Shown here: one piece after another, positions 2,943-58,224 of the stretch | How the letters are laid out: every line of letters begins with the position of its first letter | Numbering within the stretch: position 1 is the stretch's first letter | Origin: Pontiellaceae bacterium B1224 | GTDB taxonomy: Bacteria > Verrucomicrobiota > Kiritimatiellia > Kiritimatiellales > Pontiellaceae | DNA: 64,000 nt | Reading direction: 5' to 3' | NCBI GenBank assembly: GCA_029432815.1 | Contig: JAROBA010000011.1 | Coordinates: forward strand, 62,001-126,000 | Program-made: the position numbers and the translations under genes | The notes under the pieces: model-generated | Databases searched by the model: none | Told to the model about the DNA's origin: nothing | The model's input: only the letters and a program-made list of their open reading frames with translations

Positions 2943-4085
2943 CTACCACAAAAGTTTGACGTCAGTCGGCCACTCCTCAACATCGGTATAGGTTTCATTT
3001 CCTGTCTCGAAGGTGCTGTTTTCAATTGTGACATCGCACTTCAGCAGGCCCATATCGATTTTTTGGTTATCAAACACCGAGTTGATCACGAAGGAGTCGT
3101 TGACCATCCGCCACATGGCCCCCCAGGTGTTGTCCACAATTTCGCACCGATTCAGGATCACTTTCTGCGGAGCATATTTCGGATCTTCTGTGTAATCGAA
3201 CTTGCTATAGTAGGCTTCGCACGGGAACCACATGCCAACCCGGTCGCATCCGGAGATTGTGTATTTGTGAAAGAAAAGATAACCGGCCTGATCATTGTCG
3301 GACTGAATCCCGTTCCCCAGACACTCTCGAATCGTACACCGTTGCGCCAGCATATGCTCGACTGAGGTGTATTTGCAGCCTTTTCCAAGGATTGGAAACG
3401 ACATATCCAGGTCCGATTGCAGGATATATTTGTTATAGAGAAAATAGACATTGTGATACAGGCCGTCGCCCGAACCGTTAAACTGCAGGTTGCTATGGTC
3501 CATGATGATGTTATCCGTCCGTTTCATGTGCAGCCCGTGCGTTGCCCAGTCAGTGATGTTGATGTTCTGGATCATGATGCGGGTATGGCGACTTTCATTC
3601 CGGCCCGACATAAAAATGCCGTTCGCCTTATTTTTGTGAATACCCTTAATCCACAGGTCTTTAATCAGCACATCCGTAACCTGTGGTTTCGGTTGCGCTT
3701 CAAATCCGGAGCCGCTCATGTCTGCCGTCTGCTGCAGGATCGTCCGCTCACGGCCATCCCCGACAATACTGACTTTGCTCTTCAGAAACAGGGTTTCGCT
3801 GATCGGGTGAACCCCGGCCTTTAAATGAACCACGCCGCCGCCCGCATTGCTGGCAGAATCGATTGCCTGTTGAATAGAGTCGCCCGGTTCGACCACAAAA
3901 ACCTTCTCCAAAAACTGCTTTGGATATTCAACGTGCACAAAATCATCGCCCCATTTCGATTTCATGATCGAACCGATCTCTTCCTCTATTTCAACCGGGG
4001 TATAGCTGAAGTTTGTTTTCTGAGCGAAGGCAGGGTAGGTGCCCACCAGCGAGGCCACAAGAAGTACATGCGTCATCATTTTCAT
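2943..4085 (-). CDS. Secreted pectate-lyase-like right-handed beta-helix protein
   Basis: I chose the start MKMMTHVLLVASLVGTYPAF because AAAGGA lies about 10 nt upstream; an ATG 21 nt further up has no such spacing. A signal peptide is followed by VEPGDSIQQAIDSASNAGGG and VVHLKAGVHPISETLFLKS, the classic first coils of pectate-lyase/polygalacturonase-type parallel beta-helices. Repeated short strands then occur (IMIQNINITDWATHGLHM; NIIMDHSNLQFNGSGDG). No catalytic residues can be assigned with certainty. The fold suggests a polysaccharide lyase, epimerase or hydrolase acting outside the cytoplasm. The same opening motif recurs in the C-terminal third of the 36286-39114 product. It lies between the acetylesterase and the 777-aa protein, all on the minus strand. 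Confidence 0.7.
   Translation of the reverse strand: MKMMTHVLLVASLVGTYPAFAQKTNFSYTPVEIEEEIGSIMKSKWGDDFVHVEYPKQFLEKVFVVEPGDSIQQAIDSASNAGGGVVHLKAGVHPISETLFLKSKVSIVGDGRERTILQQTADMSGSGFEAQPKPQVTDVLIKDLWIKGIHKNKANGIFMSGRNESRHTRIMIQNINITDWATHGLHMKRTDNIIMDHSNLQFNGSGDGLYHNVYFLYNKYILQSDLDMSFPILGKGCKYTSVEHMLAQRCTIRECLGNGIQSDNDQAGYLFFHKYTISGCDRVGMWFPCEAYYSKFDYTEDPKYAPQKVILNRCEIVDNTWGAMWRMVNDSFVINSVFDNQKIDMGLLKCDVTIENSTFETGNETYTDVEEWPTDVKLLW
3383..3397 (+). repeat. Iterated palindrome TTCCAA-GGA-TTGGAA, perfect
   Basis: Perfect copy inside the beta-helix gene; it encodes F-P-I-L-G-K, a different reading frame from the F-Q-x-L-E copies. Confidence 0.85.
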
Positions 4086-4185: not shown

Positions 4186-5805
4186 TTATTTCAATCTGCC
4201 TGTTGTAAACACCGAGGTCGGCAATCCTTCTTTGTTATACAGATTCGCGCCTTCCGGATTGGGGGACCAGGCATAGCGCACCTCGACCGGCTTTTTGATA
4301 TCGTCATGCCAGACTTCTACAACATCCTTGCCAACAATCTTCGCCTGCGCCCATTTCCAATCATTGGAAGCATCGCAGATTTGAAAGTACTGTAACGGCT
4401 CATCCACTTCAACCGTAGCATCCATCAGATGCTTATGCCCGGTCATCAGGCCGCTGCCGACATGATCGAATTTAATGTAAATCTTAGAACCTTTAACCTT
4501 GGCCTCTTTAAAAAGTGGTCCGCTGTAGACGAGGTCCCGGCCATAGGCTTTGTTGAGTGCCCATAAAGAGAGGCGCTTGCCCGCATCGATCTTATTCTTG
4601 GGATGAACATCGCCCTCTTCACCGATATCGTTCAGCACGGCCATTCCAGTGTTTGGAACACGGAGGGCCTCGCGCTGTCCATTCTGCACCCACACCCATC
4701 CGTCGACCTCATCGCCGAGCGGTTCCTCATTGACGGCCTTATAGTTGGCCAGCTGACACCAGATGAAGAGCAGTTCTTCCTGCCCCCATGAATCCCGCCA
4801 TCCTTCAATCAAGGCCTCAAGCCGGTTGCCGTATTCCTGAGGATCGTTGCCTGAATTACTCTCGCCCTGATACCAGATGACGCCTTTCATGGCATACGGT
4901 GCAATCGGATGAACCATGCCGTTATACAACGTTCCGGGCACGCCCCGGTCGCGCATCGGATCTTCGGGTTTTCGCGGCCCTCTATTAGCGACCTTCTTGC
5001 CTTCAGCAACTGCTTTTTCCCGCTCCGCCATCGCCTTTTTATAGTGGGCCATTTCGGCCTCGTGATCCCATGCGTCGGTCTTCTCTTTGAGCTCATCCAT
5101 CTTACTGGAATAATAGGTTTTCAACGTATCACTGCGCTCAAAGGATTTCGGTGCCATCCACGGCTCAATCAGCGTTCCGCCTTTGTTGCAGCTGATGAGT
5201 GCCACCGGCACATCCAGTTCGCGGCGCAGTTCACGACCGAAAAAGTAGGCCGTTGCACAAATTTCATTCACTTCGCCCGGAATCGCCTGCGACCAATTGC
5301 CACGACCGATGGTTTCTGCTTCATAGGGCTCATACATCTGGCCGGAGCGATACTGCCGAAACAGCGGATCGTTGGCCGTGTCCCGCTCGTTGCGGAGATA
5401 TTCCGTTATCGGTTCATAAAAGGGGTCGGCAGCCGGCGCCGTCAGCATCCGGAATGGGCGATACATATTCGACTGACCGCCAGCAAACCAAACCTCGCCG
5501 ACCAAAACATCGGAATATTGGATGTCTGGATTATTGGGGCAACTGACGGTCATGGTCCGGGATTCTGCAGACGCGGGCATCGGGTCGAGCAGAATTTTCC
5601 AATGGTTGGAAGAATCGGCCATGGCCGTCTTCTCCTGCCCGGCAAATTTTACGGTAACCGTGGTTCCGGCATCCGCCATGCCCCAGACCGGAACCATTTG
5701 CTCCCGCTGCAAAACCATTTTGTCCGCGAAGATGCTCGGTAACTCAAGAGCGAATGCTCCCGTTGAACATATAAAACACCACGCCAGAATAATCCATTTG
5801 TTCAT
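4186..5805 (-). CDS. Sialate-O-acetylesterase-like carbohydrate esterase (SGNH fold)
   Basis: The 539-aa secreted protein has a signal peptide ending near FICSTGAFA. A short beta-domain follows (MVLQREQMVPVWGMADAG), typical of the N-terminus of this family. The GQSNM motif places the serine nucleophile at about residue 112, and WYQGESNSG and DVHPKNK supply the family's other conserved blocks, including the probable catalytic His. The family removes O-acetyl groups from sugars. In marine PVC bacteria such enzymes usually accompany sulfatases, as here. It is paralogous to the 22543-24063 product; the SSNHW...LDPMP stretch is shared. It sits 48 bp downstream of the giant beta-helix gene and is probably co-transcribed with it. 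Acetyl specificity and substrate are inferred. Confidence 0.85.
   Translation of the reverse strand: MNKWIILAWCFICSTGAFALELPSIFADKMVLQREQMVPVWGMADAGTTVTVKFAGQEKTAMADSSNHWKILLDPMPASAESRTMTVSCPNNPDIQYSDVLVGEVWFAGGQSNMYRPFRMLTAPAADPFYEPITEYLRNERDTANDPLFRQYRSGQMYEPYEAETIGRGNWSQAIPGEVNEICATAYFFGRELRRELDVPVALISCNKGGTLIEPWMAPKSFERSDTLKTYYSSKMDELKEKTDAWDHEAEMAHYKKAMAEREKAVAEGKKVANRGPRKPEDPMRDRGVPGTLYNGMVHPIAPYAMKGVIWYQGESNSGNDPQEYGNRLEALIEGWRDSWGQEELLFIWCQLANYKAVNEEPLGDEVDGWVWVQNGQREALRVPNTGMAVLNDIGEEGDVHPKNKIDAGKRLSLWALNKAYGRDLVYSGPLFKEAKVKGSKIYIKFDHVGSGLMTGHKHLMDATVEVDEPLQYFQICDASNDWKWAQAKIVGKDVVEVWHDDIKKPVEVRYAWSPNPEGANLYNKEGLPTSVFTTGRLK
4355..4369 (-). repeat. Iterated palindrome, perfect (spacer TGA on minus strand)
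   Basis: Perfect copy in the esterase gene; encodes S-N-D-W-K, the third reading-frame class. Confidence 0.85.
4644..4658 (+). repeat. Iterated palindrome, one mismatch (spacer TGT)
   Basis: TTCCAG-TGT-TTGGAA in the esterase gene; encodes V-P-N-T-G-M. Confidence 0.7.
5597..5611 (+). repeat. Iterated palindrome TTCCAA-TGG-TTGGAA, perfect
   Basis: Encodes S-S-N-H-W at the codons homologous to those of the copy at 23849-23863 in the paralogous esterase. Confidence 0.85.
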
Positions 5806-5853: not shown

Positions 5854-8800
5854 TCACGCCTGAATCTGAAGCCGGTAGAATCCGTTGGTAACCGAGAACG
5901 TTTCGGAATCTTCGAGAATGACCGGACTGCCGGTTCCGGTGATCGGTTCTCCGACATCTTCCCACTCTTCCTCCAGGAGCGCATTCTTGCGTTGCAGTTG
6001 ATAGGTGTGGCCCGGAACAGACTGTATGCTGAATTGCATCGTGCCGTCCGAAGAAGTCGGAACGGGAATAACGCGTTCCTCGGGTGAGATTGGTAGATCG
6101 GGCGCCGGGGTGGTGCCCCAAATTTCTACTTCCAAGATGCTGTTCCAGCTGTTGTCCGAATTGCCGTGACCGACCAACCGTACGTACCGTGCGCGAGTTG
6201 GCGTGACATCGACCGTCTCCAATTCGAGCGTAGTGCCTGAGCTTTGCAGGGTTTCGGTGATCGCAGTCCAGGTCGAGTCATCGTCCGAGGTCTCGATATG
6301 GAAGCTCGAGGCGCGGGTCGAGCCATTGAGCCAGGCGATTTTTAGGGAATAGACATTCACCTCGGTACCCAGGTCGTAGCGAATCCACTCGCCGTCGCCA
6401 CTCGCGGACCAACGCGTGTCGAGACTGCCGTCGACAGTGTTGCTCGGATAATGCTCGGTGCCATCTTGATAGCTGCTGGCTGTAACCGCATCGGAACCGA
6501 TGATGAATTTCGACGGAACAGAGCCGTAGGTGGCCGTGACTTCATCGCTGGGGGAACTCTCCCCGCCGTCGATGGTCGCCGTGACCACGTAATAGTAGGC
6601 GATTCCTTCGAATGCGGTGGAGTCGGTGAAGGTGAGATCACTGGTGGTGCCGATGGGACTGTAGGGGCCTCCTGATATTGTGGCGCGTTGGACTGTATAG
6701 CTGGTGGCGTTGCTCACGGAGCTCCATTCGAGCATGATCTGTGTGGAGTTTGTGGAGGCGGTTACTCCATTGGGACCGGTGACCACGGCTCCGAAAATCT
6801 CCACTTCTGCCAGGCTGAGCGGGTTGGTCCCCCGCAACTGGATGACGACATACCGGCCCGTAACATTCGGCAGCACGGACGCAGATGGATTGGGGTAGGG
6901 GGCCTGATAAGAGGTCCAGACAGGTTGAGCATCGTCATTGAGAATGGTTACATCATAGTTGCTCAGGCGGCTCTGATAGGAATCCGTCCGTCCCCAGATT
7001 TTAATTTCAGAAATGCGGCTCGAACTTTCGAGCTCCAGCTGCCACCAGGGTTGCGCCTCGCTGGCCGTAAGGGTAACGGACCCTTCGCTGAATTGACCGT
7101 TGGTATTCTGATCGATCGCCAGCGATGCGAGCGCATCGTCATCGGTCGAACTCTGGGTTGCCTTGCCGTAGAACGTGATGTTGGACGTGATGCTCCAGTC
7201 TCTTAGGATGATACTGTTGCTGGTTCCATTGTTCGTCAGAGATCCGATCGACTGGCCGGTATTTCCAGACGTGTTGTCGTCCAACACCAGTGGATAGCCG
7301 GTCAGATTGTTAATCACTATATTGTTCGCCGCATAGTTTTCGTCTTCATCAAGCGCGCTTGCTGACCGTTTGTCGCCGCCAAGATTCAGTTCGAGTTCCT
7401 GGTCCGGAAATTCTTCCAAACCTCGGAACGTCAGGTTATGACCGCTGCCCCAAATGTTGGCAAAATGGCGGCCCCCGTTATAGTGCTTCCCTTCGTATGG
7501 CAGAATCGTGATATCGGCTACAATTCCTCGGTCAGATTCGTAGGCTACGCCGAACGCCGGTCCATATTTAACATCGGCACGGCAGTTTTCAATGATGCCA
7601 CCGGTACCGGTAGCAAAGCCTTGCTCACACCCGATGGCGGTGCAGCCCGAAACATATTTTGTGCCCGAGGAGAGCGTCAACGCGACCCCGGTTCGCATAT
7701 TAACAATCGTATTGTCAATCACGGTAGGGTTGGACGTGCCCCGTTGGGTGGTCACCCCGTCGACTATCGTTGTGCCGGCATTATACGAGCGGATACCGCC
7801 TTCACCGGTGCACTTCATATATCCCGGAGGAAGCCGGTAGCCCCAGTCCGTCAGAAAATCAATATCATAGGCGGGGCCCGAGGTTTCCGCCAGCATGTCA
7901 TCGGTGGAGCGCATCTCGCCTTCAATATAACACCCTTCAATGACCGGGCTTTTGGCCGCCTGCATAAATAGGGCATGGCCGTAGGAGCGATGGATCAGTG
8001 TGCAGTTCTTTGCATGATTATAATCACCGCGAACCAGAAACGCGCTATGTTTGGAGTGCTTGATGGTATAGGAGCCGCCTTTGCCGAAGCTATCTCCGTA
8101 GCCGTAGGGATAAGATCCTTTAATGGTCATGTGAAAGCCTTCAACCCGGTTATGGGCTCCATCCATGATGACATTGACTCCGCCGTCCAATGAAACACTT
8201 CCATGTACATCGCACAGATCAACCATGGTCAGATTTTTCAGGACGTTATGGTTCCCGAAAACCTGGAGGTGGTTCATGCTCAAATCGGAGGTGTAAATAT
8301 CGGCCGCGAAGTTAATGGTAACGTCGGTAAAATCGTAGGTGCTGTTGCTGCCCCGGAACGCGAAACGCGGTGTGCCGAACGTGTCTCTCACATCATCGGC
8401 ATCGATGAGATATGTGCCAGGAGAGAGTGTCGCAGAGACGTTGTCTTGTTCCAAATAAGGCAGCAGTGCTTCTGGAGAATCGACCGTAACGTTGATGTGA
8501 TAGGTGGTCACTAGCGCATCCGATGCAATATTCTGCAGACCGTCGTTCATGTCCATTACGGAATTGGCCGGCAGGCTCAATATAACATCGCCGCCGAAAT
8601 TCGGGCTGACCTCCACGGAATAGCTTGCGCCGGATCCGGTCACGCTTACGACGGTGGCATTGATAACATAAAAATCGCTCGCCGTTAAACCAGTGACCGG
8701 CTCGCTGAAGTCCACTTGAACCGTATAGTTGCCGAACACTTTATTTGTCGTCGTGCTGAGCGTCGGCACGGGCTGCTCACTTCCCGGAGCCACATAGGTG

Positions 8801-22542: not shown

Positions 22543-24063
22543 TTATTTTTCCGTGTTTAAAGGTTCAAATCGGTCCGTGCGGAAAGGGTAGGCCGGGAGT
22601 CCGGCACCGTTGATCAGATTCACCTGCGGCATGCCGGCAAAGGCATATCGGACGTAGCGTGGTTTTTTCAGTTCAGCAGATTCCAGCACAACAGTTTCTC
22701 CTTCGATCGTTGCATCAGCAGAAACCCATTTACCGGAGTCGTCAGAAATCCAGAATGCACTTGGGGCTTCGCCGTCAATGGTCTTCAGACCTTCAGCATG
22801 ATCAAACGAAAGCACCAGCGTGTTGCCCCGCATTTCCAATGTTTGGAAAACGGGGCCCTGTGCTTCGATATCCATTCCCAGTGTGTCGCGTTGGGCCAGC
22901 AGGGCTAGGCGCTGCCCAACGGGTAGCTTATCTTTTGGATGGACGTTTTTTGCATCGCCGAGGTCGATCGTGTTGGCGACCGAGGTCTTCGGAAGTTCCA
23001 ATGCCTGGAGCTGCGATTCCCGCATCCAGGCCCAGGAAGCTGCGGTGGGGCTCTCGGCTTCATCGAGGATGTCTTTTGCATAGCCGGGAAGAAGCACCAC
23101 GAGGAATTGAAAATCATCGCGATTCCATTCCTGCCGCAGCCGCAGCATCCATTGTTTCAGCGTATCGCCATATTTCAGCATGCCGGAGTTGCGCGAAAAC
23201 CAAGGCTCTTTAATCATGCCGAACATCGACTGCGTATTGCGTTCGCCCTGATACCAAACCAGACCTCTGCAGGCATAGGGGGCCAGCGGAGCCAGCATGG
23301 CATTATAAAGAATGTTCGATTGACGGCGCAGGAACACATCGTCCTTTCCGCTCCAGGGCCTCGGCCCATCGAGAATGGATTGAATTTTTTCGTACGTCGC
23401 GGTGTCGGCATCAAATTCTTCCATCATGGTTTTGAAATGGGGGACGGTGGCGGTCATATCGCGCGGCATCCAGGCTTCGATCGACGAGCTGCCCCAGCAG
23501 GTTAGAATGATGCCCACCGGAACCTCGGCGGCCTCTTCCAGAAAATAGGCGAACGAAAATGCGACGGCACTATTTGGAATTGCATTCGTCCACGCCCCTT
23601 CGCACGAATCCTGTTCTGTAAAAGCTACGGTTCGTGGCACCTCGAACGTACGGATATTTTTTGCAGAGCTTTCCAATGCCTGGATCTCGGGAACCGATTT
23701 TACCGGAAACTTCATGTTCGACTGCCCCGAGCAGATCCAGACTTCTCCGACCAAAATATTGGAACATTGGATTTTTGGATCATTGGAGCTGCTGGAGACG
23801 ATCATTTCCAAGGGTTGGAAACTTCCAGGCATTGGATCTAATACGACATTCCAATGGTTGGAAGAATCCGCAACGGCGGTTTTTTTCTGACCGGAAAATT
23901 CAACGGTAATCGTTTCGCCGGGATCCGCGGTGCCCCAGACCGGAACGGGCATATCGCGCTGGAGTACCATGTGGTCGGTAAACATTGACCCCATTTTTAG
24001 TTCGGCTTGCACAACCCATGCGGATAGTGCCACGAAAACTATGCAAAACTTAACTCGGTTCAT
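22543..24063 (-). CDS. Sialate-O-acetylesterase-like carbohydrate esterase
   Basis: The 506-aa secreted protein has the same plan as the 4186-5805 product: signal peptide, beta-domain (HMVLQRDMPVPVWGTADPG), nucleophile motif SGQSNM (Ser about 115), WYQGERNTQ and DAKNVHPKDK with the probable catalytic His. The two share clear similarity throughout, but this copy carries six copies of the iterated palindrome within about 1 kb, more than any other gene in the window. It is flanked by a second SGNH esterase upstream (43 bp) and a sulfatase downstream (2 bp). It is likely to remove O-acetyl groups from a sulfated polysaccharide in the periplasm or outside. Confidence 0.86.
   Translation of the reverse strand: MNRVKFCIVFVALSAWVVQAELKMGSMFTDHMVLQRDMPVPVWGTADPGETITVEFSGQKKTAVADSSNHWNVVLDPMPGSFQPLEMIVSSSSNDPKIQCSNILVGEVWICSGQSNMKFPVKSVPEIQALESSAKNIRTFEVPRTVAFTEQDSCEGAWTNAIPNSAVAFSFAYFLEEAAEVPVGIILTCWGSSSIEAWMPRDMTATVPHFKTMMEEFDADTATYEKIQSILDGPRPWSGKDDVFLRRQSNILYNAMLAPLAPYACRGLVWYQGERNTQSMFGMIKEPWFSRNSGMLKYGDTLKQWMLRLRQEWNRDDFQFLVVLLPGYAKDILDEAESPTAASWAWMRESQLQALELPKTSVANTIDLGDAKNVHPKDKLPVGQRLALLAQRDTLGMDIEAQGPVFQTLEMRGNTLVLSFDHAEGLKTIDGEAPSAFWISDDSGKWVSADATIEGETVVLESAELKKPRYVRYAFAGMPQVNLINGAGLPAYPFRTDRFEPLNTEK
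22834..22848 (+). repeat. Iterated palindrome TTCCAA-TGT-TTGGAA, perfect
   Basis: First of six copies in this esterase gene; encodes F-Q-T-L-E. Confidence 0.85.
23806..23820 (+). repeat. Iterated palindrome TTCCAA-GGG-TTGGAA, perfect
   Basis: Encodes F-Q-P-L-E. The homologous codons of the 4186-5805 paralogue encode different residues and contain no copy. A two-mismatch copy abuts at 23823-23837. Confidence 0.85.
23849..23863 (+). repeat. Iterated palindrome TTCCAA-TGG-TTGGAA, perfect
   Basis: Encodes S-S-N-H-W, homologous in position to the copy at 5597-5611. Confidence 0.85.
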
Positions 24064-29300: not shown

Positions 29301-29315
29301 TTCCAATGTTTGGAA
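29301..29315 (+). repeat. Iterated palindrome TTCCAA-TGT-TTGGAA, perfect, intergenic
   Basis: Lies in the region between the large sulfatase and the SHD1 protein gene, 11 bp from the next perfect copy. Confidence 0.85.
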
Positions 29316-29326
29316 CCCGTTCCGAA

Positions 29327-29341
29327 TTCCAACCCTTGGAA
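29327..29341 (-). repeat. Iterated palindrome, perfect (spacer GGG on minus strand), intergenic
   Basis: Second of the intergenic pair, 26 bp downstream of the SHD1 gene's stop; the two copies face opposite ways when oriented by their spacers. Confidence 0.85.
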
Positions 29342-42725: not shown

Positions 42726-45700
42726 TTATTCAACGAGTTCAGCCGTAATCCGATAGTAGCAGCTGGACTGTGCCGGATTGACAGACGAGTCGAAGAATGG
42801 ACTGTTCGTGACGGTGGCAATTTCCACGAACGGTTCATTCAGATTTTCGGCTCTGAAAATGGTGTACGTTCGGCCCTCCACCGCATTCCAGGATAGGGCC
42901 GGTGGGGCGAGCGCCTGAACTGCAAAGTAGGAACTGTTGTCGGTGGGGATGGTACCGGCGATATATTCCTGCAGGTTATTCTGACCGTCCAGATCCGGGT
43001 CGGCATCCGGTTCTACGAGATTCTTGAAATACAATGTTTCCCATTGGTCCGACATTAGGTCGCTATCGATATCTGCCGAGTCCGGCACGTTCCATGATGA
43101 AAGTCCGGTGCGCATAAGCGGATAGCCCGTTCCGTCCGCACTGACTGGCCACGGGGATTGATCAAAATAGAACAGCTCATCGACAACAACCCAGGATATG
43201 TCGAGCGGTTTGAGCGGGTCGTCCGAATCCTGAGGGCGTTCGATGGCAACGCGTTCCCCGCGGTCGGAGAGCGATCCGCTGTAGCCGCCAATGAAAGTTT
43301 CGCTGGCGGCGTCTAATCCATAGGCTGAACAGAACAGGTCCAGTTTGACGGAATTGGTTGGGTTGAACGAAAGAATCCAAAGGATTTCGCCGGCGGGCAG
43401 GGTGGTGCCGGCGGGGAAGTCGAATTCAACTCCGCCATCAATACGGTAGGCACCGGTTGCATTTTCAAACGTATGCGAGGTCGATCCGAGATTTTGAATC
43501 TGTATATATTCAAAATCGTTGCCGGGCTGTATTGGATTATACATCAGTTCGCTGATTTGAATCGTGGCCGCAACCGGCACGTTCGCACTTCCAAGGGTTG
43601 GAAGGGTGGTGATCCAGCTTGCCGAACCATCGGGATAGCGACCCCAGGAAACATGTTCGGTATCCGTATTTTCCTGTCCTTTGAAACGGACCACATCCAC
43701 CACGCGTCCGGGTGCGGTGAGCACCACCAGTTCTCCGGCCTTATCGAGGCCGAAACCGCTGATGCGGTCGGGGTGAAAATTGTTTTCATCAAAAACGATG
43801 TAACCATCGGCTGGAATCACGGTTCCAGATGGAATTTCCCATTGGTATAACTCGTCGAGATCATCGCTCAAATACCACCCATTCAGTGTGATGTCCGATC
43901 CGGTTGGATTATAGAGTTCGATTTTATCGTTCGAATCGTAGGGTTCAGCAAGGCCGGTATCGGTATGCGCTGTAATTTCATTCAGCAGAACCGTTTCTCC
44001 TTCTTCAGGGTCCGGGTAGCCGGGCGAGCCTTTGAGGTAGGTGCTCGCGCGCCAGTTACCCCCATAATCGAGCGAGCCGGTTTCCTGACGGTCGATCGCT
44101 GAGTCGAGCGGAACCAGCGAGTGCCCCGCGCCGTCAGCAGCCTGCGGCCAGTTGCGCGCATCATCATACGTGAAGGAAATCAGATCCTCATTGCGGAATT
44201 CGAGATCCACCTTCTCGCCGCTATTGCTGAAGTCACCGCTAAACTCCCCGGCAATCGAAATGCCGCCGCCGGGATATGCGGCATTAAAGCTGTCGATATC
44301 ATCGACCGCGACCAGAAACTCACCCGGGGCAAGACTGGTTTGTGCGGCATTTTTAAATTTAAAGCTGATCGCATTGTCGAACTTGTAACCTTGAAGTGAA
44401 ATGGTTTCGTCTGAAATATTTTTCACCTCAATAAAGTCGTATGGATTTCCGTCGGGGGCGTGATACATCAGCTCGGTCACAGCCAAAGGAATTTCGGGCG
44501 TCCAATACGTCTCTTCAGCCAAGGCGCTCCACTCGCCATTGGTTGCGCGGCAGCGGGCCATGAGATGCGTGGGGCGGGTAATGGAAATAGATCCGGTATA
44601 CGTTGAACCGGCAATGCCACCGCCAATCGCACGCGGGTCGGTACCGTCGGTGGTGTAATAAATGGTTCCCGAACCTGCGCTCAAAAATACGGTGGCTCCT
44701 GAATCAACCCGTCCTCCGGCACGACTCATCAGCGGAGGATCAATGGATGGTATTAATCCATCGGCATCCAGATAACCAATCACTTCATTGCACCGATCGC
44801 CAGAGCGGGAGAACCAGGCCCGGGTGGTTGCGACTGCATCAACCCATGTGTCGCGGTCCAGTTCCGTACTGCCCCAGCGCGCTGCGTTGGCGACGATGGC
44901 GCGGTCGATCTGAGCCGCACGGAAATCCAAACGCGCTTCGCAATTGGTTCGAACCAACACGCCGTCATTATACATGCTTTCATACACCCGATCCGCGTAT
45001 TTGATGCGGTATTCCGCATTCTCGATGAGTTTGTCATGAAGGGTCATTGCGTTGAAATATTCGGGCAACGTGAAATTGCTATTCGTGAACGGGCCCGTGA
45101 AATCCAGCGCTTTGTAGGTATCCAGACTATGTTCACTGTCGTGCTGGATCCACTTGAATCCATCGGGATTGACGCGGTTGTACACGGCATACATGTTGTT
45201 TAATTTCGCGTAACGGCCCACGAACCACGTGATGCAGTTGTCGGATGCAGCCATGTGTTGCAGTACCAACAGGTAATCAATCAGGTTATCGACATCGAGC
45301 AGCTTTTCTTTGGTTGCATCAGGTTCTCCGTTGGCGTCGAGTCCTTGAATGGCAAAATAGTCCGCATCGTCGGTAAAGCCTGCCATCGCCGCAGCGTACA
45401 ACCGGTTGTATGCATCCAGTGTTCCGTCCGTGACTTCGATGGAATACTGGTCCGGCAACCCTCTGCCAATTACCTTGACCGCATCGTAGTCATCTTTGTC
45501 GCCCCCGAAATAGGATGCGGCAAAGGAGGCGACCGGTCGCTCTTCGGTCATGAACAGCCCCCAGTATTCACCATTTAAATAGAGGTGGTAATAGCGGCTT
45601 CGGGTGTAGGTCTGGCCCATTGCGCCCGCGGTGTCGCGCGCGAATACATCGCGCAGAAACGTATTCTTTGAATTGTTCTCTTTCGACCAGCTATAGTTCT

Positions 45701-50319: not shown

Positions 50320-51179
50320 TTTGGATCCAGCTGATAGACCTTCAGGTCTTTATACTGATGGTGCGTACGGACCAACCGGAAGCCGAAATAGCCTTCGTCA
50401 TACGAAGGGAAGGTCTCTTCGTTATATTCTTCCTCGATGACAGCACGTTCCCCATCCACTACCGTTTCGACCGTTACGGTGTCGCCCGCCTTGATTTCAT
50501 AAAACACTTTCCCATCCATGCTGTATTGCGCCATCCCGTTGAAGATGACGAGCTGGACGGTGTGCCACTTTCCGGGGGTGATCAGATAGTCTTCATTACC
50601 ATCCCGATCGTTAAGCGCAATATGTGGAAACGGTTTTTCATTCACCACGCGCGGGTACCGACGGAAGCGGGTGGTCTGGTTGCCAACAGCTCCGCCGCCA
50701 CCGGTGCTGGCATAGTACCCCTGCATTTTTCCGTAGCTGCTGAAGCCGCCGTTAAACAGCTCATAGTTGAAAATATCGGTTTCATTATCGACGCCGGAGC
50801 AGTGCCAGAAGTTATTGATGTCGCGTGCCTGAATGCTTCCGCCATTGACGGTTTCCAACGGGCACAGCACCTTGTATTCAATCAGGATCGGTCCTTTAAA
50901 CTTATGATTGAGCCAGGCCGTACAGCCGCGAGCCGGCATATAGAGGTCCAGCATGCCGTCGTGGAATTCAATCACCTCTTTTTCAGGACCTTCCTTCGCC
51001 TCAACCTGAATCACCCACTCATTCGTATTGGAGAAATCGGTTGAATAGAGTTCTTCACCAACGGAGAACATGGATTGGCCGTAGCCTAGCTCTTCCGGTT
51101 TATCGGCAGTCGCACAGCTGCTGAGCAGGGCAACGCTGAAGAGTAGGGGAATAGAAGTGAAGATGTTGAGTTTAGTCAT
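50316..51179 (-). CDS. Small lipoprotein, paralogue of the 49459 product (DUF1961/DUF6250-like)
   Basis: The 287-aa protein carries a lipoprotein signal (MTKLNIFTSIPLLFSVALLS, then SC; LSSC lipobox with Cys about 22), so unlike its twin it should be membrane-anchored. The mature part mirrors the twin: GEELYSTDFSNTNEWVIQVE, DGMLDLYMPARGCTAWLNHK, ARDINNFWHCSG, TRFRRYPRVVNEKPFPHI. It overlaps the stop of the lyase gene upstream by 8 bp and the start of its twin downstream by 4 bp, an operon with coupled translation. A role in binding or cutting the lyase products at the cell surface is inferred. Confidence 0.68.
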   Translation of the reverse strand: MTKLNIFTSIPLLFSVALLSSCATADKPEELGYGQSMFSVGEELYSTDFSNTNEWVIQVEAKEGPEKEVIEFHDGMLDLYMPARGCTAWLNHKFKGPILIEYKVLCPLETVNGGSIQARDINNFWHCSGVDNETDIFNYELFNGGFSSYGKMQGYYASTGGGGAVGNQTTRFRRYPRVVNEKPFPHIALNDRDGNEDYLITPGKWHTVQLVIFNGMAQYSMDGKVFYEIKAGDTVTVETVVDGERAVIEEEYNEETFPSYDEGYFGFRLVRTHHQYKDLKVYQLDPK

Positions 51180-54100
51180 TTTGAGTTTCCTCCGTACGAA
51201 TTACGTTTCCATTTAATAGTTCTGTCACCGAAATACGAATGTTTTCCGGATCGCTGTCCAAACCGGAAATGTTAATTTTCTGCGTTCTGCCGTCGGTCAG
51301 TTCGACCACCAACTCGTTTGCACTATTTGCCTGAACCGATTTCACAACGGACTCCGTTTCATAGGGTTCTATGACGGAAAGATATCGCGCGTCGGTGCCG
51401 GTGCTGCGAACGGCCATTGTTTTGCGGCGTTGTGTTTCATCGCCCATCGGGAAGTCGCCGCCGATCGTTGTCTTGAATGCAACCGCGTCCATGCCCGAAA
51501 GGTCAATGGTAATGCTGCCGCTGGACTTGGAATCCTGCGGCATACCCGGCGTGGAATTTTCCATGAGCATGCCTTCAATTTTCACCGGGCCGCCGTAATA
51601 ATCTTCGCCAGCGACTGCCGGTTGTAGGATATTGTCATATTTGACGGGAAGAGATGAAATGAATACTTCCGAACCGTCGTCGAGAATCAATTTCGCATCG
51701 CCCCAGAAGATCGTATTGTTCTGCGGTTTTTCAGTTCTCGTAGTCAGCACCAGTTCTTTTTTGCCCGAAATATTCACTTCAATATCCTGTGCACCGAGTA
51801 TCCACGCACCCGTGCTGTCTTTCTCCAATGTTTCGCCATCGGCCGTCACACTGTACCAGATGCGTTTATTCACATTAAAGGTTTCCGGGGCGGTGGCGAT
51901 CATGATCTCATTCTGCCGCGGCCAGGCATTAAATATATCGATCTTCAACGGACCGTCTTCGCTCGCCTTCATCCGGCCGATCTCATTTTCGCATCCTTTG
52001 CCGAAGCACATTTCAAAACGGGCCCGGGCAGTGCCTTCGGTCTCGTACCAGTCGCAATCTGTAATGAACTGCGCCGCACCCAGTGGATCTTTATTCATCT
52101 GACCGTCATGGCGAACCAATTCCACCTTCTCGGCTTCCAATCCCTGGAAGCCTTTCACATGAAACAACCAGTCAAACGTATGTTCCTGTTCTGCCTTCAG
52201 ATAATCAGCCAATACAATGTAGTCATCCATCATAACCATTAAGCGGCGTTGCAGTACCGGTTCGGTATAGCCGGTCACTTCCGCATACGCCGGCGCATTT
52301 TCCGGGATATAGATCGAACGATTGTCTGCTTCGACTTTTTTTGCAAAGTCGGTTTCCAGCCCGTCATAGAGCATCCCGCCGTAAGGAGGATGACTCCATC
52401 GCGCTTCCGACTCAACCGCCACGGCCTGCAGCATATCGCCGGTATAATAGAAGGTGCGGAAACTTTCCTTCGGCTCCTGCATCTTTTGATCTACCACTAC
52501 CATATTCTTGGTCATCGAGGTTTGAACTAAAAATTTGTAGAGATAGGAGGCATAGCCATACCAGATCATTTCCGGATTATAGAAACTGCGTCCATAACGC
52601 ATCATATTTAGGAACCCGGTTCTGTCGAAGTGACCGTGATGTCCACCATGTGAGCCGTAGTGCAGGGTGGCCTGAATCTGCTCGCGCTGTTCCCTGTCTT
52701 CCGCCTGAGAGCGCAACTGGACGATGCCGATGTTATCCGCATAGGCTGATTCTTTCATTTTTTCTGAAGTCACGTTCGGCAGATCCGGCACGCCATAGAG
52801 CAGGCTTCTCTCCGTGCCGCGGTTAATCACGGCAGCATATTCCGGATCGCGATAGAGGTAGTAGGCCAGCTCATAGCGATCTCCGGTCACTTTCATTTCC
52901 GTGGCATCGTTCACGGCAAACATGACTCCGCGATAATCCAGGAAAGGAATCATCGCATCCCACATGTCTTTGATGTTTACGCTATTTTTAGCAAGGGGAC
53001 CCCATTTCATGAAATCCATTCCGAACAGGCCGGGCACTCTACGTTCCGGTAGCAGGGCAAAATATTGAGTGGGTCCAATCGGCATCTCTTCATCGATGAA
53101 ATTGATTCCCCAGGGCAGCAACGCAATTCCAATCTCTGAAAACTCGCTGGCCACCCACAGGTTATATCCCACAGCACATTCATACCACCAACCGTCGCTC
53201 ATGACCCCATGAATGAACTGCTGGTAAATGCCGGTTGGTGCATAGAGCAGTTCCTCAACAAGGTGCCAGTCCTGAATGGCCAGAGCGCAATATAGGGCAC
53301 TAGTCACTTCGGCGACATCCCAGTTACTGATGGCACCGAAATCAGTGCCCAGCTGGATGGTTTCGATGTGCAGGCGGAAGGTGTTTTCGACGAGTTCTTT
53401 ATCTTCATCCGTCAAAATGCCGGAATCCAGAATCATATCGTAGGCGCGGGCCACGTGCTGGAAGAACACGCCTTCTTTCACAAAGTTCTGCGCGTTCCCG
53501 CGGAAGGTGGTGGGATAGCCGTTATCCAGATTGACCACGCGACGAATAAACAACGCACACTTTTCTGCATATTCTTTTTTTCTGGTGACCTGATAAGCAA
53601 TGGCGCAGTCAAACAGATCATCCGCATTGTCAAGATGATATAGATTTCTGCCTAAATGAGGATTCACAGAGGAGGGGCCCGTCGCAAGTTCCGGAACCTT
53701 CCAATTAGAGGCAGTTTTTTCATATTTAGCCAGCGCCTCTTTTGCCCAGTCGTAGGTTTGAGCGTTTTCCCGAACCACATCCCACCGATCCTCGGTAAAT
53801 ACAATGTTTGGAAAAGGAACCGCGACGGCCGTGGTAAATTCCAGGGATTGTGCTGCAGAACCCTGACCATTCGGGATCACTGTAATCACCTGCTTTTCCC
53901 GGATGCCCTGAGGCAGTCGTGCAGGGATAGATACTTCAATTCGACAGGTCTTTACCTCTCCCGGAGCCAATTGCAGCAGGGCCGGTTCAATGGTCACGGG
54001 CATGGCTTCCCAACCCAACGTGGAAACCATAAGCTGGACGCTTTGCTTCTCGGCGGTCGTATTGCCAATGCTCATCTCATACTGTACCGTGCCGCCGGCT

Positions 54101-54663
54101 TCAGCAGATTTTCCCTGAGCCGGTGAGTCCAGCGCAATGCGCTCGCCCTTGGTCAGATGTAGATTCCGAATTTTCAATACCGGATTTTTCGGAGAGGTTG
54201 CCGTGATCTCAACCTCTTTAACAGCCTGTAGCGATCCCCAGCGCTGGCCTTCGGAAACATCAAACAGTTCCCATGGAACATAAACGGTTTTCCAGCCCTT
54301 TCCAGTGATTGGAATTCGGGCCGTGTTGATGCCGCTCAAACGATTTGCATCGCTCTCCGTTAATGTGGCGGACACAATCAGGTCAACGGTAGATTCCTTT
54401 TCCAGAAAAACCTCAAAACTCAGCCCCGCATAGATACTCCAGTCCGATGCATATTCATAATATTCACGGAACCCGATATATTTAAACTCGCCGTCGGGAT
54501 AGCGGTATGAAATGGGCTCGCCGCTTTTGAGCGAGATCTCATCGTCATTAACTTCAGCAATTCCGGACCAATCCGAAAAATCAGGACTTCCGATATCGGC
54601 ACGCAACTGTGCGTGGGTGATTAAGGGAAGCAGAGCCGCTATCAGCATGAGTACTTTTTTCAT
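51172..54663 (-). CDS. Secreted heparinase-II/III-type polysaccharide lyase, copy 2
   Basis: I chose MKKVLMLIAALLPLITHAQ as the start (1163 aa), with AGGAA about 9 nt upstream. After the signal peptide come a carbohydrate-binding-like beta-domain (DWSIYAGLSFEVFLEKES; GKGWKTVYVPWELFDV), an Ig-like domain (GGTVQYEMSIGNTTAEKQ), an alpha/alpha-toroid (KEYAEKCALFIRRVVNLDNG; AISNWDVAEVTSALYCALAI; DGWWYECAVGYNLWVASEF) and the heparinase-II/III beta-sandwich (HYGSHGGHHGHFDRTGFLNM; GRSFYNPEMIWYGYASYLYK). The SHGGHHGHFD motif fits the metal or catalytic His region of these lyases. They cleave uronic-acid-containing polymers such as alginate or heparin-like glycans. It is highly similar in length and sequence to the gene 38 bp upstream. 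Confidence 0.85.
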   Translation of the reverse strand: MKKVLMLIAALLPLITHAQLRADIGSPDFSDWSGIAEVNDDEISLKSGEPISYRYPDGEFKYIGFREYYEYASDWSIYAGLSFEVFLEKESTVDLIVSATLTESDANRLSGINTARIPITGKGWKTVYVPWELFDVSEGQRWGSLQAVKEVEITATSPKNPVLKIRNLHLTKGERIALDSPAQGKSAEAGGTVQYEMSIGNTTAEKQSVQLMVSTLGWEAMPVTIEPALLQLAPGEVKTCRIEVSIPARLPQGIREKQVITVIPNGQGSAAQSLEFTTAVAVPFPNIVFTEDRWDVVRENAQTYDWAKEALAKYEKTASNWKVPELATGPSSVNPHLGRNLYHLDNADDLFDCAIAYQVTRKKEYAEKCALFIRRVVNLDNGYPTTFRGNAQNFVKEGVFFQHVARAYDMILDSGILTDEDKELVENTFRLHIETIQLGTDFGAISNWDVAEVTSALYCALAIQDWHLVEELLYAPTGIYQQFIHGVMSDGWWYECAVGYNLWVASEFSEIGIALLPWGINFIDEEMPIGPTQYFALLPERRVPGLFGMDFMKWGPLAKNSVNIKDMWDAMIPFLDYRGVMFAVNDATEMKVTGDRYELAYYLYRDPEYAAVINRGTERSLLYGVPDLPNVTSEKMKESAYADNIGIVQLRSQAEDREQREQIQATLHYGSHGGHHGHFDRTGFLNMMRYGRSFYNPEMIWYGYASYLYKFLVQTSMTKNMVVVDQKMQEPKESFRTFYYTGDMLQAVAVESEARWSHPPYGGMLYDGLETDFAKKVEADNRSIYIPENAPAYAEVTGYTEPVLQRRLMVMMDDYIVLADYLKAEQEHTFDWLFHVKGFQGLEAEKVELVRHDGQMNKDPLGAAQFITDCDWYETEGTARARFEMCFGKGCENEIGRMKASEDGPLKIDIFNAWPRQNEIMIATAPETFNVNKRIWYSVTADGETLEKDSTGAWILGAQDIEVNISGKKELVLTTRTEKPQNNTIFWGDAKLILDDGSEVFISSLPVKYDNILQPAVAGEDYYGGPVKIEGMLMENSTPGMPQDSKSSGSITIDLSGMDAVAFKTTIGGDFPMGDETQRRKTMAVRSTGTDARYLSVIEPYETESVVKSVQANSANELVVELTDGRTQKINISGLDSDPENIRISVTELLNGNVIRTEETQND
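52135..52149 (-). repeat. Iterated palindrome, one mismatch (spacer GGA on minus strand)
   Basis: Encodes F-Q-G-L-E at the codons homologous to those of the perfect copy at 55659-55673 in the twin lyase. Confidence 0.7.
54300..54314 (+). repeat. Iterated palindrome, one mismatch (spacer TGA)
   Basis: TTCCAG-TGA-TTGGAA; encodes I-P-I-T-G-K. The homologous codons of the twin lyase carry no copy. A two-mismatch copy lies at 53799-53813 in the same gene, also without a counterpart in the twin. Confidence 0.7.
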
Positions 54664-54701
54664 ATCATCTATTCCTGTTCTGAATATGCGAGACCGTTTG
54701 A

Positions 54702-57700
54702 TCAAAAGGTTTTTTCTTCGCGAATCAGCTCACCGTCTTTGAATTCCTTAACGTCGATTGAGACATCCTGATCTTCTTCAGCGAAGCCGGAGATTATAAT
54801 CTCCTGAATGCTTCCATCCACCAGTTCCACCGTCAGTTCATTCGCGCTCTTCGCGGTTACCGATTTGACGACCGATTCCGTTTCATAAGGTTCAATGATA
54901 GAGAGATAGCGAGTTTCGGAGCCAGTGCTGCGAACGGCCATCGTTTTACGGCGTTGTGTTTCATCGCCCATCGGGAAGTCGCCGCCGATGGTCGCTTTGA
55001 AAGCAACCGCGTTCATGCCCGTGAGATCAAGGGTAATGCTGCCGGCGGACCTGAAATCCTGCGGCATACCCGGCGTGGAGTTATCCATGCGGATGCCTTC
55101 AATCTTCACGGGTCCGCCATAATAGTCCTCTCCGGCAACCGTCGGTTGCAGGATATTGTCATACTGAACCGGCAACGAAGAGACGAATACCTCAGAACCG
55201 TCATCCAGAATCAGCTTTGCATCGCCCCAGAAAATGGTGTTGTTCTTCGGTTTTTCAGTTCTCGTAGTCAGCACCAGTTCCTTTTTGCCGGAGATATTCA
55301 CTTCAATATCTTGCGCACCCAGAATCCATGCGCCGGTGCTCTCATCCACCAAGGTTTCGCCATCAGCCATTAGGCTGAACCAGACCCGTTTATTCACGCC
55401 AAAGCTTTCCGGAGCGGTCCCGATCATGATTTCATTCTGTTGCGGCCAGGCGTTAAATACATCCATCATAAGAACGCCGTCTTCACTGTTTGGCATACGG
55501 GCGCCGGCATTGTCGGCCCCTTCGCCCCAGAGCGTTTTAAAGGTGGCGCGGGAGGTGCCTTCTGTTTCATACCAATCGCAATCGGTAATAAACTGTCCGG
55601 TGCCCAGCGGATCTTTATTCATCTGTCCGTCGTGGCGAACCAGTTCCACCTTGTCGGCTTCCAATCCTTGGAAACCCTTAATCTGCATCAGCCAGTCGAA
55701 GGTATGCTCTTCATCTGCATCCAGATAGTCGGCCAGCACCACATAGTCATCCATCATGATCATTAGGCGTCGCTGCAGAATGTCTTCCGTGTAGTCCGTG
55801 CAGAGACCGTATTCCGGGGTCTCGTCCGGAATATACAATGAGCGGTTTTCTTCCTCCGACTTTGCTTTAAAGTCGATGCCGTCCAGATGGGTGTAGACCA
55901 GACCGCCGTAGGGCGGGTGACTCCATTTCGAGATGCTTTCAACCGCTGTCGCCTGCATCATGTCGCCGGTGTAATAGAACGTGCGGAAGCTTTCGCGGGG
56001 CTCCTGCTGCTTTTGATCCACCACCACCATATTCTTGGTCAGGGAAGTTTGAACCAGGAACTTGTAAAGGTAGGAGGCATAGCCGTACCAGAACATTTCC
56101 GGGTTATAGAAGCTGCGCCCGTAGCGCATCATATTGATGAAATTCAGCCGATCGAAATGCCCATGATGTCCGCCGTGCGAACCATAGTGCAGCACGGCCT
56201 GAATCTGTTCGCGCTGTTCGCGGTCCGGCGTCTGGGAGCGGAGCATCACGGCCCCGAAGTTATCGGCATAGGCCGACTGCGTCATCATTTCCGACGTCAC
56301 ATCCGGCAGTTCCGGAACGCCATAAAGCAGATCGCGTTTGTCCCCGCGGTTGATCACTGCCGCGAATTCCGGATCACGATAGAGATAGTACGCCAGCTCA
56401 TACGGCTTGCCCGTCACAAACGATTCTTTGGCATCGTTGACGGCAAAGATTACGCCGCGGTAATCGAGGAACGGAATCGCCGCATCCCACATCTCTTTAA
56501 TGCCGATGTAGTTTTGATTGATGGAACCCCATTTTTCAAAACTCATGCCGTGCAGCCCCGCCACCCGGCGGCTCGCCTGCAACGAAAAATGCGGTGTGGT
56601 TCCAATCAGGAACTTCTGGTCTTTCAGATTGATACCCCACGGTTCGAGGGCGATGGCGGTTTCTGAAAATTCGCTGGCGACCCAGGTGTTATAGCCGACC
56701 GCACATTCGTACCACCAGCCATCAGCCATGATACCGTGATACATCTGCGCATAAACACCCGTCGGGGAGTAGAGCAACGTATCGATCAGGTTCCAATCCT
56801 GCAGCGCCAAAGCGCAGTACAGCGCGCCGATCACTTCCGCCACGTTCCAGTTGCTGATGCCGCCGCGTGTGTTGTATTTGATCGTGAGATTCACAAACAG
56901 GCGCATCGTATTCTGAATCAGCGCGTGATCTTCTTCTGTCAACAGCTCCGAATTACGAACCATATCGTAGGAACGCGCCACACCCTGAAAAAAGACGCCT
57001 TCATGCACAAAGCCTTCTCCGCTGGCTTGCTCCGTTGCCGGGTAGCCGGTTTCAACATCCGACAGTTCGCGAAGCAACGTGATTACTTTTTCAGCATACG
57101 CTTCGTCCCCCGTCAGCTGATACACAATGCCGCAACGGTTCAGCTCGTCGGCATTGCCTTTATGGAAAAGTGCCTGCCGGGGATTTTTTGAATTAAATGA
57201 AGCCTTCGGAACGTTCCACTTGGATGCCTTCTTTTCGTAGTCAGCCAATTCCTGCGCCGCCCATTCATAGTTGGCCACCTTGTCTTTAACCTCCTGCCAC
57301 TTGTCGGCCGTAAAGACAATGTTCGGCGTCGGCAGTGCAACCGATGTGAAATATTCAATGGTGACGGCTGCAGAACCTTTGCCATTCGGAATGGCTTTAA
57401 TGACCTGTTTTTCGCGTGCACCGTCCGGCAGGGAAGCGGGGACCGCCACCTCAACCTGAACGCTTTTCGTTTCACCCGGAGCCAGCTGCAGCATGGAAGG
57501 TTCCATGGAAACGATCATCGATTCCCAGCCCAGTTTTTCGACCAGCAGTTGAACGCCCTGCGGTTGATCAGTGGTGTTGCCCACCTTGAATTCATACGAA
57601 ACGGTTCCGCCGGCGTTAACGGCACGGCCCTGAATCGATGTTTCCAATGCCAGCTGTTCGCCTTTGGTCACCCGAATATTCCGGATCTGCAGGTTTTTAT

Positions 57701-58190
57701 TCTCAGCAGATTCAACGGTGATTTCCAGCTCCTTCACCCCCTGCAGCGCATTGCCTTGCTGACCGATGTTTACATCAAATAAGTCCCAGGAGAGATAGAC
57801 AGTTTGCCAGCCTTCTCCCGACACAAGGGCTTTAGCCGTCGAAGCCGGGTTCAGCTCCATGTGGTCTAGCGGGTCCGCCTTGAAGGTTGTAACGATTTCA
57901 GCGGTACTGGGTTTAGCCAGAAAAACTTCAAACGAGAGTCCGGCATAGTCGTACCAGTCCGCCGCGTCGCCTTTAAACTCGCGCTTCAGGTTCGGGTATA
58001 CGCGGTTCTGACCGCTGTATGTGTAACGGATCGGTTTCCCGCTCGTGAGTTCCGCTTCGTTATTACGAACATTGGATATTCCGGACCAGTCTGAAAAATC
58101 AGGTGCGCCAACCGGCTCGTTGAGTTTTGACTGTGCTCCATGGCACACCATACCCAGCAAAAAAATAACAATACTAATCATCGATTTCAT
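54702..58190 (-). CDS. Secreted heparinase-II/III-type polysaccharide lyase, copy 1
   Basis: I chose MKSMISIVIFLLGMVCHGAQ as the start (1162 aa), with GGAG about 7 nt upstream. Domain order equals that of its twin at 51172: N-terminal beta-domain (ADWYDYAGLSFEVFLAKPS), Ig-like spacer (GGTVSYEFKVGNTTDQPQ), toroid (GDEAYAEKVITLLRELSDVE; GGISNWNVAEVIGALYCAL; DGWWYECAVGYNTWVASEF) and beta-sandwich (HYGSHGGHHGHFDRLNFINM; GRSFYNPEMFWYGYASYLYK). The C-terminal ~250 residues are almost the same in both copies (GDFPMGDETQRRKTMAVRSTG), suggesting recent duplication or gene conversion there. A hairpin with a T-run separates it from the symporter gene upstream. Substrate not readable from sequence. Confidence 0.85.
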   Translation of the reverse strand: MKSMISIVIFLLGMVCHGAQSKLNEPVGAPDFSDWSGISNVRNNEAELTSGKPIRYTYSGQNRVYPNLKREFKGDAADWYDYAGLSFEVFLAKPSTAEIVTTFKADPLDHMELNPASTAKALVSGEGWQTVYLSWDLFDVNIGQQGNALQGVKELEITVESAENKNLQIRNIRVTKGEQLALETSIQGRAVNAGGTVSYEFKVGNTTDQPQGVQLLVEKLGWESMIVSMEPSMLQLAPGETKSVQVEVAVPASLPDGAREKQVIKAIPNGKGSAAVTIEYFTSVALPTPNIVFTADKWQEVKDKVANYEWAAQELADYEKKASKWNVPKASFNSKNPRQALFHKGNADELNRCGIVYQLTGDEAYAEKVITLLRELSDVETGYPATEQASGEGFVHEGVFFQGVARSYDMVRNSELLTEEDHALIQNTMRLFVNLTIKYNTRGGISNWNVAEVIGALYCALALQDWNLIDTLLYSPTGVYAQMYHGIMADGWWYECAVGYNTWVASEFSETAIALEPWGINLKDQKFLIGTTPHFSLQASRRVAGLHGMSFEKWGSINQNYIGIKEMWDAAIPFLDYRGVIFAVNDAKESFVTGKPYELAYYLYRDPEFAAVINRGDKRDLLYGVPELPDVTSEMMTQSAYADNFGAVMLRSQTPDREQREQIQAVLHYGSHGGHHGHFDRLNFINMMRYGRSFYNPEMFWYGYASYLYKFLVQTSLTKNMVVVDQKQQEPRESFRTFYYTGDMMQATAVESISKWSHPPYGGLVYTHLDGIDFKAKSEEENRSLYIPDETPEYGLCTDYTEDILQRRLMIMMDDYVVLADYLDADEEHTFDWLMQIKGFQGLEADKVELVRHDGQMNKDPLGTGQFITDCDWYETEGTSRATFKTLWGEGADNAGARMPNSEDGVLMMDVFNAWPQQNEIMIGTAPESFGVNKRVWFSLMADGETLVDESTGAWILGAQDIEVNISGKKELVLTTRTEKPKNNTIFWGDAKLILDDGSEVFVSSLPVQYDNILQPTVAGEDYYGGPVKIEGIRMDNSTPGMPQDFRSAGSITLDLTGMNAVAFKATIGGDFPMGDETQRRKTMAVRSTGSETRYLSIIEPYETESVVKSVTAKSANELTVELVDGSIQEIIISGFAEEDQDVSIDVKEFKDGELIREEKTF
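55659..55673 (-). repeat. Iterated palindrome, perfect (spacer GGA on minus strand)
   Basis: Encodes F-Q-G-L-E in lyase copy 1. Confidence 0.85.
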
Positions 58191-58224
58191 ACCGGAACTC
58201 CAAAATCTGAAAGCACAGTGCCCG

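Follow-up and report, generated by a model that had tools for sequence, protein, structure and literature searches.

The genome of Pontiellaceae bacterium B1224 is pervaded by one 15-letter interrupted palindrome, TTCCAA-NSN-TTGGAA, whose two 6-bp arms supply 12 specified bases: the 5.38-Mb assembly (G000; 204 contigs) contains 1177 exact copies where a dinucleotide model predicts 0.86, and the reversed control occurs 0 times. Judging from the sequence and arrangement of these copies, they are probably binding sites of one sequence-specific, dimeric and cooperatively binding Kiritimatiellia protein with a genome-wide role. The 6-bp arms would be recognized as an inverted repeat centered on a G:C base pair, and a spacing of two or three helical turns between centers would place neighboring dimers on one face of the DNA. 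In B1224, selection or drive at the level of DNA would make and keep sites by point substitution, even at the price of altering proteins. The role would most likely lie in nucleoid organization or global transcription rather than in a classical regulon. Below, the window denotes the whole 64,000-nucleotide stretch of this genome that was analyzed.

A single palindrome is over-represented genome-wide

With up to two mismatches allowed, the 64-kb window holds 77 matches to the motif, compared with 22.85 (sd 5.73) in shuffles. A sample of 842,769 bases of the B1224 genome contained 199 exact and 243 one-off copies, while 25 palindromes made of shuffled half-sites gave 0 exact and at most two one-off copies in the same bases. 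When all 5-base half-sites separated by gaps of 0-21 were screened, the motif (overlapping frames included) was the sole enriched spaced dyad in this genome. The same screen of samples from relatives found it enriched in G048, G021 and G027 and barely visible in G004 and G024; it was absent from the G018 sample. Counting degenerate sites, the B1224 genome has about one site per 1.6 kb, scattered, and 124 of the 199 exact copies in the sample fall in coding sequences, which make up 86.8% of bases according to gene calls from a simple codon-usage caller rather than a standard tool. Fourier analysis of the site spacings in B1224 revealed no 10.5-bp signal, and site density was not correlated with GC content (rho 0.11, P = 0.17). 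One 22-kb stretch (contig C44, 22085-44058; loci L035-L037) has no relaxed sites and a GC content of 0.47; its genes resemble, by eye, glycosyltransferase and polysaccharide-export genes, and it is probably a young variable region.

The 243 one-off copies deviate from the consensus mostly at position 6 (143 copies, of which 127 are A>G), position 5 (47) and position 1 (42), while positions 2 (6) and 3 (5) are rarely changed and C4 never (0). This is not random decay, and a protein-binding site in duplex DNA would degenerate in this manner. Of 539 relaxed sites, 485 have G or C as the central base of the spacer, and the equal frequency of G (246) and C (239) suggests that a base pair of duplex DNA is involved. 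The palindrome could also pair in a transcript and so act as an RNA hairpin, either a terminator or a processing signal. However, mirror changes read in the coding sense (47 A6>G vs 44 T10>C; 5 A5>G vs 29 T11>C) lack the asymmetry expected if G:U pairs were tolerated, so what is conserved is not an RNA pairing that tolerates G:U. The G/C center is moreover symmetric, the spacing of neighboring copies is helical and their placement obeys no orientation rule, all of which makes the hairpin scarcely credible.

The copies might instead arise, like HIP1, as a by-product of DNA methylation combined with biased mismatch repair. HIP1 (GCGATCGC) of cyanobacteria is characterized, in the excerpt of PMC4390886 that we used, as a highly iterated palindrome that differs in frequency between relatives and whose one-off deviations are biased to the first and last bases. 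The extreme genome-wide over-representation that marks a HIP1-type palindrome is seen here too, but deviations in our motif are concentrated near the center (position 6) rather than at the ends (position 1), and a by-product of this kind leaves the phasing and the intergenic arrays described below unexplained. A specificity of 12 bp is also long for a methyltransferase. We consider this origin very unlikely.

Copies in an esterase gene, its paralogue and lyase-like twins

Individual sites were scored against TTCCAANNNTTGGAA (TTCCAA-NNN-TTGGAA, 12 specified bases). The open reading frame at 22543-24063 (minus strand) encodes a carbohydrate esterase of the SASA family (sialate O-acetylesterase-like; PF03629, E = 2e-14), with orthologues in G008 (81% identity), G004 (75%) and G016 (72%), and a paralogue of the same family is encoded at 4186-5805 (PF03629, E = 2e-17). 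All six copies that the original prediction had placed in the esterase gene are present. Those at 22834, 23806 and 23849 score 12/12 and those at 22996, 23671 and 23823 score 10/12, the latter three differing only by changes tolerated elsewhere in the genome (G at position 6, an altered end base).

The histories of the six sites differ. The exact copy TTCCAATGTTTGGAA (22834-22848), encoding FQTLE, aligns without gaps in all homologues and scores 12/12 in G016, 10/12 in G004, 8/12 in G008 and 5/12 in the paralogue; G016 keeps every one of the 12 motif bases, although its peptide reads FQRLE and its middle codon is wholly different (CGG, vs ACA in B1224). The degenerate copy TTCCAATGCCTGGAG (22996-23010) is likewise 10/12 in the G008 and G016 orthologues, and TTCCAATGCCTGGAT (23671-23685) scores 9/12 in G008, 8/12 in G004 and 6/12 in G016. 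The copy TTCCAAGGGTTGGAA (23806-23820) is exact in B1224 alone (G008 9/12, G016 4/12, G004 3/12), and the degenerate copy TTCCAGGCATTGGAT (23823-23837), 17 bp from it, scores 9/12 in G008 and 7/12 in G016. At the codons of these two sites the paralogue has no copy, as had been claimed, and scores 3/12 and 4/12, respectively. The exact copy TTCCAATGGTTGGAA (23849-23863), by contrast, is shared: the paralogue carries it at 5597-5611, both genes encoding SSNHW there, and it is equally 12/12 in G008, in G016 and in a second G016 homologue. From this alignment the shared copy is taken to be ancestral to both paralogues, so that old copies exist too. Gene conversion is not needed to account for it, since esterase and paralogue are identical at just 190 of 468 aligned residues and the identical block at the shared copy hardly exceeds the motif. 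The paralogue in turn has a private exact copy at 4355-4369 (6/12 at the same codons of the esterase) and an 11/12 copy at 4644-4658 where the esterase scores 5/12 and a further homologue, in G012, 11/12.

The clustering of sites in the esterase is ordinary. Six relaxed sites occur in three of 540 called coding sequences, the esterase being the shortest of them; the chance of its six sites is P = 0.00017 for this gene alone and roughly 0.09 over 540 genes. The six sites are thus the tail of a mildly clumped distribution.

A second pair of homologues in the window behaves in the same manner. Two adjacent genes at 51172-58235 (51172-54705 and 54702-58235), each of 1177 residues with 746 identical columns of 1183, are a tandem duplication. 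Their polysaccharide-lyase-like profile matches (to Hepar_II_III_C for one twin and to Alginate_lyase for the other) are weak and below the Pfam cut-off, so the name lyase is tentative. The one copy that the twins were said to share is indeed the same site, 11/12 in the first twin (52135-52149) and 12/12 in the second (55659-55673). Of the two copies reported for one twin only, that at 54300-54314 is clear (11/12 vs 4/12 in the other twin), whereas that at 53799-53813 is a weak example (10/12 vs 6/12). Elsewhere in the window, exact copies lie in coding sequences at 2194-2208, 3383-3397 and 43589-43603, and an intergenic pair of exact copies 26 bp apart occupies 29301-29341.

Coding copies arise by point substitution and follow DNA identity

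The original prediction held that homologous coding sequences gain or lose copies, leaving the mode of origin of these copies to codon alignment. We aligned the exact coding copies of B1224 with their homologues, retaining the 40 of 123 copies that had a usable homologue (at least 35% identity). Across these copies, 156 of 162 alignments are gapless, compared with 714 of 808 for random windows in the same genes. Three of the six exceptions have a gap of one or two residues in the homologue and three an insertion in the homologue; a 5-residue insertion at a B1224 coding copy was seen in none of the 162. The absence of gaps indicates that copies are made by point substitution, not by insertion.

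Comparison of 46 reciprocal-best pairs extends this result to orthologues. Exact B1224 sites were exact, 10-11/12 or below 10/12 in 4, 3 and 3 cases in G016, 1, 2 and 6 in G008, and 0, 1 and 4 in G004, none of them gapped. In the reverse view, G016 sites fell into the same classes in B1224 in 4, 1 and 0 cases and G008 sites in 1, 1 and 2. As sites are missing whichever genome is taken as the starting point, gain or loss runs both ways. The middle triplets of B1224 sites often differ in G016 (ACA vs CGG, TGA vs TCA), although base-level conservation in this comparison is indicative only, because its score classes select conserved sites. Together with the esterase, paralogue and twin alignments, these data bear out gain or loss within homologous genes.

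The copies might nonetheless have been ancestral protein motifs kept by amino-acid selection, which would have overturned that claim. Codon use speaks against this and reveals constraint at the level of DNA. The peptide FQxLE occurs 85 times in 539 gap-free called coding sequences, compared with 2.1 predicted from composition, and 39 of its occurrences use the exact motif codons, compared with 1.01 predicted from codon usage. The other two reading frames of the motif are enriched as well, with 34 vs 1.47 in the second and 50 vs 0.10 in the third. We conclude that the force acts on DNA, overriding both codon choice and residue choice, and that copies follow DNA identity, not protein need.

Phased, intergenic arrays in relatives

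In relatives the motif forms arrays with a regular pitch. Neighboring copies in 100 kb of G048 are spaced by 31 bp (21 times) or 32 bp (7), and those in 43 kb of G057 likewise by 31 (8) or 32 (7). In 24 array-bearing genomes, which were chosen among those positive at a gap of 16-17 bases, exact pairs number 1756 at gaps of 16-17 bases, 557 at 2-15 and 119 at 18-36, which averages 878, 40 and 6 pairs for each gap value (over 2, 14 and 19 values). G134 and G148 account for 455 of the 557 pairs at gaps of 2-15, and the pairs listed there are mostly 22 or 30 bp apart. Spacings of 31-32 bp correspond to three helical turns and about 22 bp to two. Eighty named loci were picked by a triple pattern with 31/32-bp spacing, so that this spacing is theirs by construction, whereas their spacings of 22, 30 and 51-53 bp are not. 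In G134, G148 and locus L201 (JAFXQI), 22-bp pairs with an A/T-rich spacer are mixed with 30-31-bp pairs whose spacer is more G+C-rich, and the mixed spacings sum to 52-53 bp, or five turns. Phasing is weak in the window's own genus: pairs summed over B1224, G016, G008 and G027 number 22 at gaps of 16-17, 51 at 2-15 and 27 at 18-36 (11, 3.6 and 1.4 per gap value), and B1224 itself shows a spacing excess at 17 and 30-34 bp.

The arrays lie between genes, with 26 of 29 exact copies intergenic in G048 and 19 of 19 in G057. This restriction, like the helical phasing, is not expected of uptake signals, which are the main rival to a binding protein: the palindrome would mark self DNA for natural transformation and accumulate by molecular drive, as DUS and USS do. 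Such a signal would fit the scatter of sites over coding as well as non-coding DNA and their gain by substitution at the protein's expense, and also the presence of ComEC and the absence of the motif from the 22-kb polysaccharide-type cluster. ComEC, however, is found in 38 of 38 genomes, motif-rich or not, so that this part of the competence machinery does not discriminate between the two groups. On balance an uptake signal is unlikely.

Orientation of the flanking genes does not matter to the arrays. In relatives, sites occur in 47 of 136 co-directed, 7 of 31 convergent and 17 of 49 divergent intergenic regions, and in B1224 in 55 of 260, 12 of 28 and 16 of 51, respectively. These counts bear on the possibility that the motif is a classical operator, bound by a transcription factor whose regulon is very large. 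Its operator-like symmetry would be suited to this, as would the two- and three-turn spacing that Lrp-type regulators use according to the part of PMC2995911 available to us. Yet convergent regions, which normally lack promoters, bear sites too, and coding sites are spread uniformly along genes (KS P = 0.73, n = 308), leaving a classical operator decidedly unlikely. Sites in convergent regions and inside genes argue instead for a genome-wide structural or global function of the proposed protein.

The spacers within arrays are mostly unrelated. Neighboring spacers have an identity of 0.43, compared with 0.29 for random ones, and reach at least 0.8 in 7% of 145 neighbor pairs; since neighbors are above random, some arrays may have grown partly by duplication. 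An array-holding stretch is 97% identical over 112 bases in two assemblies (L015, 2039-2150; L191, 14-125); arrays can therefore be stable, or common to close relatives. Intergenic arrays that vary among relatives are also what a REP/BIME-type mobile palindrome spread by a RAYT transposase would leave, and genes for Y1_Tnp (PF01797, a family broader than RAYT) are present in 18 of 20 motif-rich genomes. But such genes are equally found in 15 of 18 motif-poor genomes and are absent from the motif-rich G101 and G191, the flank profiles have no GTAG-type head, and the gapless alignments at B1224 coding sites show no spread by insertion. A mobile palindrome is largely refuted by these data and highly improbable.

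Distribution in the class and candidate reader proteins

Copy number ranges from 0 to 1339 over 58 relatives (B1224 included) and from 0 to 1177 in the window's own genus alone. The pair pattern with a 16-17-base gap was found in 32 of 114 genomes of its own class (Kiritimatiellia by inferred assignment, B1224 included) and in 0 of 223 genomes from other classes of the phylum sample, 337 having been searched overall. The assignment to Kiritimatiellia follows from exact or close DNA matches to named records of that class: one G134 array string matches RGIG6649, G057 matches GMC4_bin_25 (97% over 112 bases) and B1224 matches Kiritimatiellales STD2_208 (78.7% over 1270 bases). In at least one other genus the number of arrays runs from 0 (G275) to 79 (G288). 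Swings of this size within genera indicate that the user of the sites is dispensable or fast-evolving. A scan of a contig collection for three phased copies returned at least 116 stretches. Eighty of them are listed, from 26 records whose titles name Kiritimatiellae/-ia/-aeota, Kiritimatiellales, Pontiellaceae, Lentisphaerae, Verrucomicrobia, Spartobacteria or an uncultured bacterium. A putative viral contig (L031, IMG/VR 3300018422_000008) has six exact copies in one predicted coding sequence (7607-7846), with start-to-start spacings of 36-60 bp, and may encode a repetitive protein.

Motif-poor genomes retain a few copies (1-14 in 12 of 20). All-against-all BLAST of the genes neighboring copies in 20 stretches from such genomes disclosed no outstanding shared family. 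Nor do the leftover copies appear to sit beside their regulator as an ancestral target, since the ten flanking proteins that we scanned, which come from six of the 20 stretches, show no relationship to one another. Two leftover copies lie next to restriction genes, as if they had been transferred from motif-rich relatives. In G054, which has only five strict-pattern copies, two phased pairs (L301, contig C28, 1332-1378 and 12182-12228) flank an island of about 11 kb that contains a type III restriction subunit (PF04851), a methyltransferase-like gene (by eye) and a HARE-HTH protein. It looks like a defence island brought in from a motif-rich relative.

Every protein family that we tested fails to track the motif, and the cognate protein was not found among Lrp/AsnC, ParB, ComEC or REP-type transposase proteins. 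A 15-bp palindrome with two- or three-turn phasing is what would be expected of an Lrp/AsnC operator, and our motif has both traits. PF01037, however, is present in 30 of 30 array-bearing and also in 25 of 30 array-free genomes. The Lrp-like protein of the class has an acidic helix-turn-helix that is alike in G018, G003 and G014, motif-poor species included, and B1224 has no match to PF13404 (HTH_AsnC). For these reasons the protein is unlikely to be the reader. Across loci L144-L163 this conserved Lrp/AsnC-like protein lacks the usual arginines in its acidic helix-turn-helix region, and it may no longer bind DNA. An extra ParB-like protein does not distinguish motif-rich genomes either, PF02195 occurring in 38 of 38 genomes and more than once in some genomes of either group.

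Discussion

Dimers of one protein, bound side by side, would best account for the symmetric arms, the G:C center, the position-specific tolerance and the whole-turn spacing. We infer that protein, its cooperativity and its role from the traits that we observed, namely these four together with abundance, origin by substitution and restriction to one class in the sets searched. More than 1000 copies of a 15-bp site, forced into proteins and phased in relatives, imply a strong genome-wide force at the level of DNA. The notable part is therefore the class-wide phased palindrome, beyond the gene-level finding from which the original prediction proceeded.

Bacterial nucleoid proteins known so far mostly bind with low sequence specificity. 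If the palindrome belongs to a specific phased system, it would be a rare example of a chromosome-wide binder whose sites are all legible in the sequence and whose site gain and loss can be traced among sister species. We tentatively raise the possibility, on which we would not insist, that Kiritimatiellia have sequence-specific chromatin, built by an abundant protein that lines up along a single face of the DNA at thousands of nearly identical palindromes. Such a protein would bind strongly enough to dictate amino-acid sequence and intergenic layout, and would repeatedly have been lost or re-tuned within genera. Our results also carry a warning, since over-represented peptides in these proteomes (FQxLE, SNxW) can be artefacts of DNA rather than protein motifs. 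A search of openly licensed PMC papers for the motif strings, for Kiritimatiella/Kiritimatiellota repeats and for iterated palindromes found no paper on the motif, which is not proof of novelty.

Among known systems, DUS and USS uptake sequences are abundant short words that accumulate inside genes; our motif differs from them in being palindromic, helically phased and, in relatives, intergenic. Like HIP1, it is a short palindrome repeated very often and unevenly among relatives, but it is a 15-bp interrupted one with deviations near the center and phased intergenic arrays, and is confined to one class in the sets searched. REP/BIME elements are extragenic palindromes in arrays, as described in the portion of PMC2817692 available to us. 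Our motif, unlike these, has no head sequence, has mostly unrelated spacers, and its in-gene copies are made by substitution.

NrdR boxes have a sequence different from the motif and few sites per genome. In the excerpt of PMC12051234 at hand they are paired sites that need helical phase, with spacers of 14-17 bp, and by this description alone our arrays, as paired sites in helical phase, resemble them. Lrp/AsnC (FFRP) operators are bound by cooperative dimers whose centers are separated by two or three helical turns, on the same face of the DNA, according to the excerpts used (PMC2995911, PMC4046817). The Ss-LrpB operator TTGCAAAATTTGCAA is also a 15-bp palindrome, with arms that differ from our motif by one base pair per half, whereas the motif has more than 1000 sites and a G:C center. 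By analogy, the system would work like phased Lrp or NrdR operators without being one of them.
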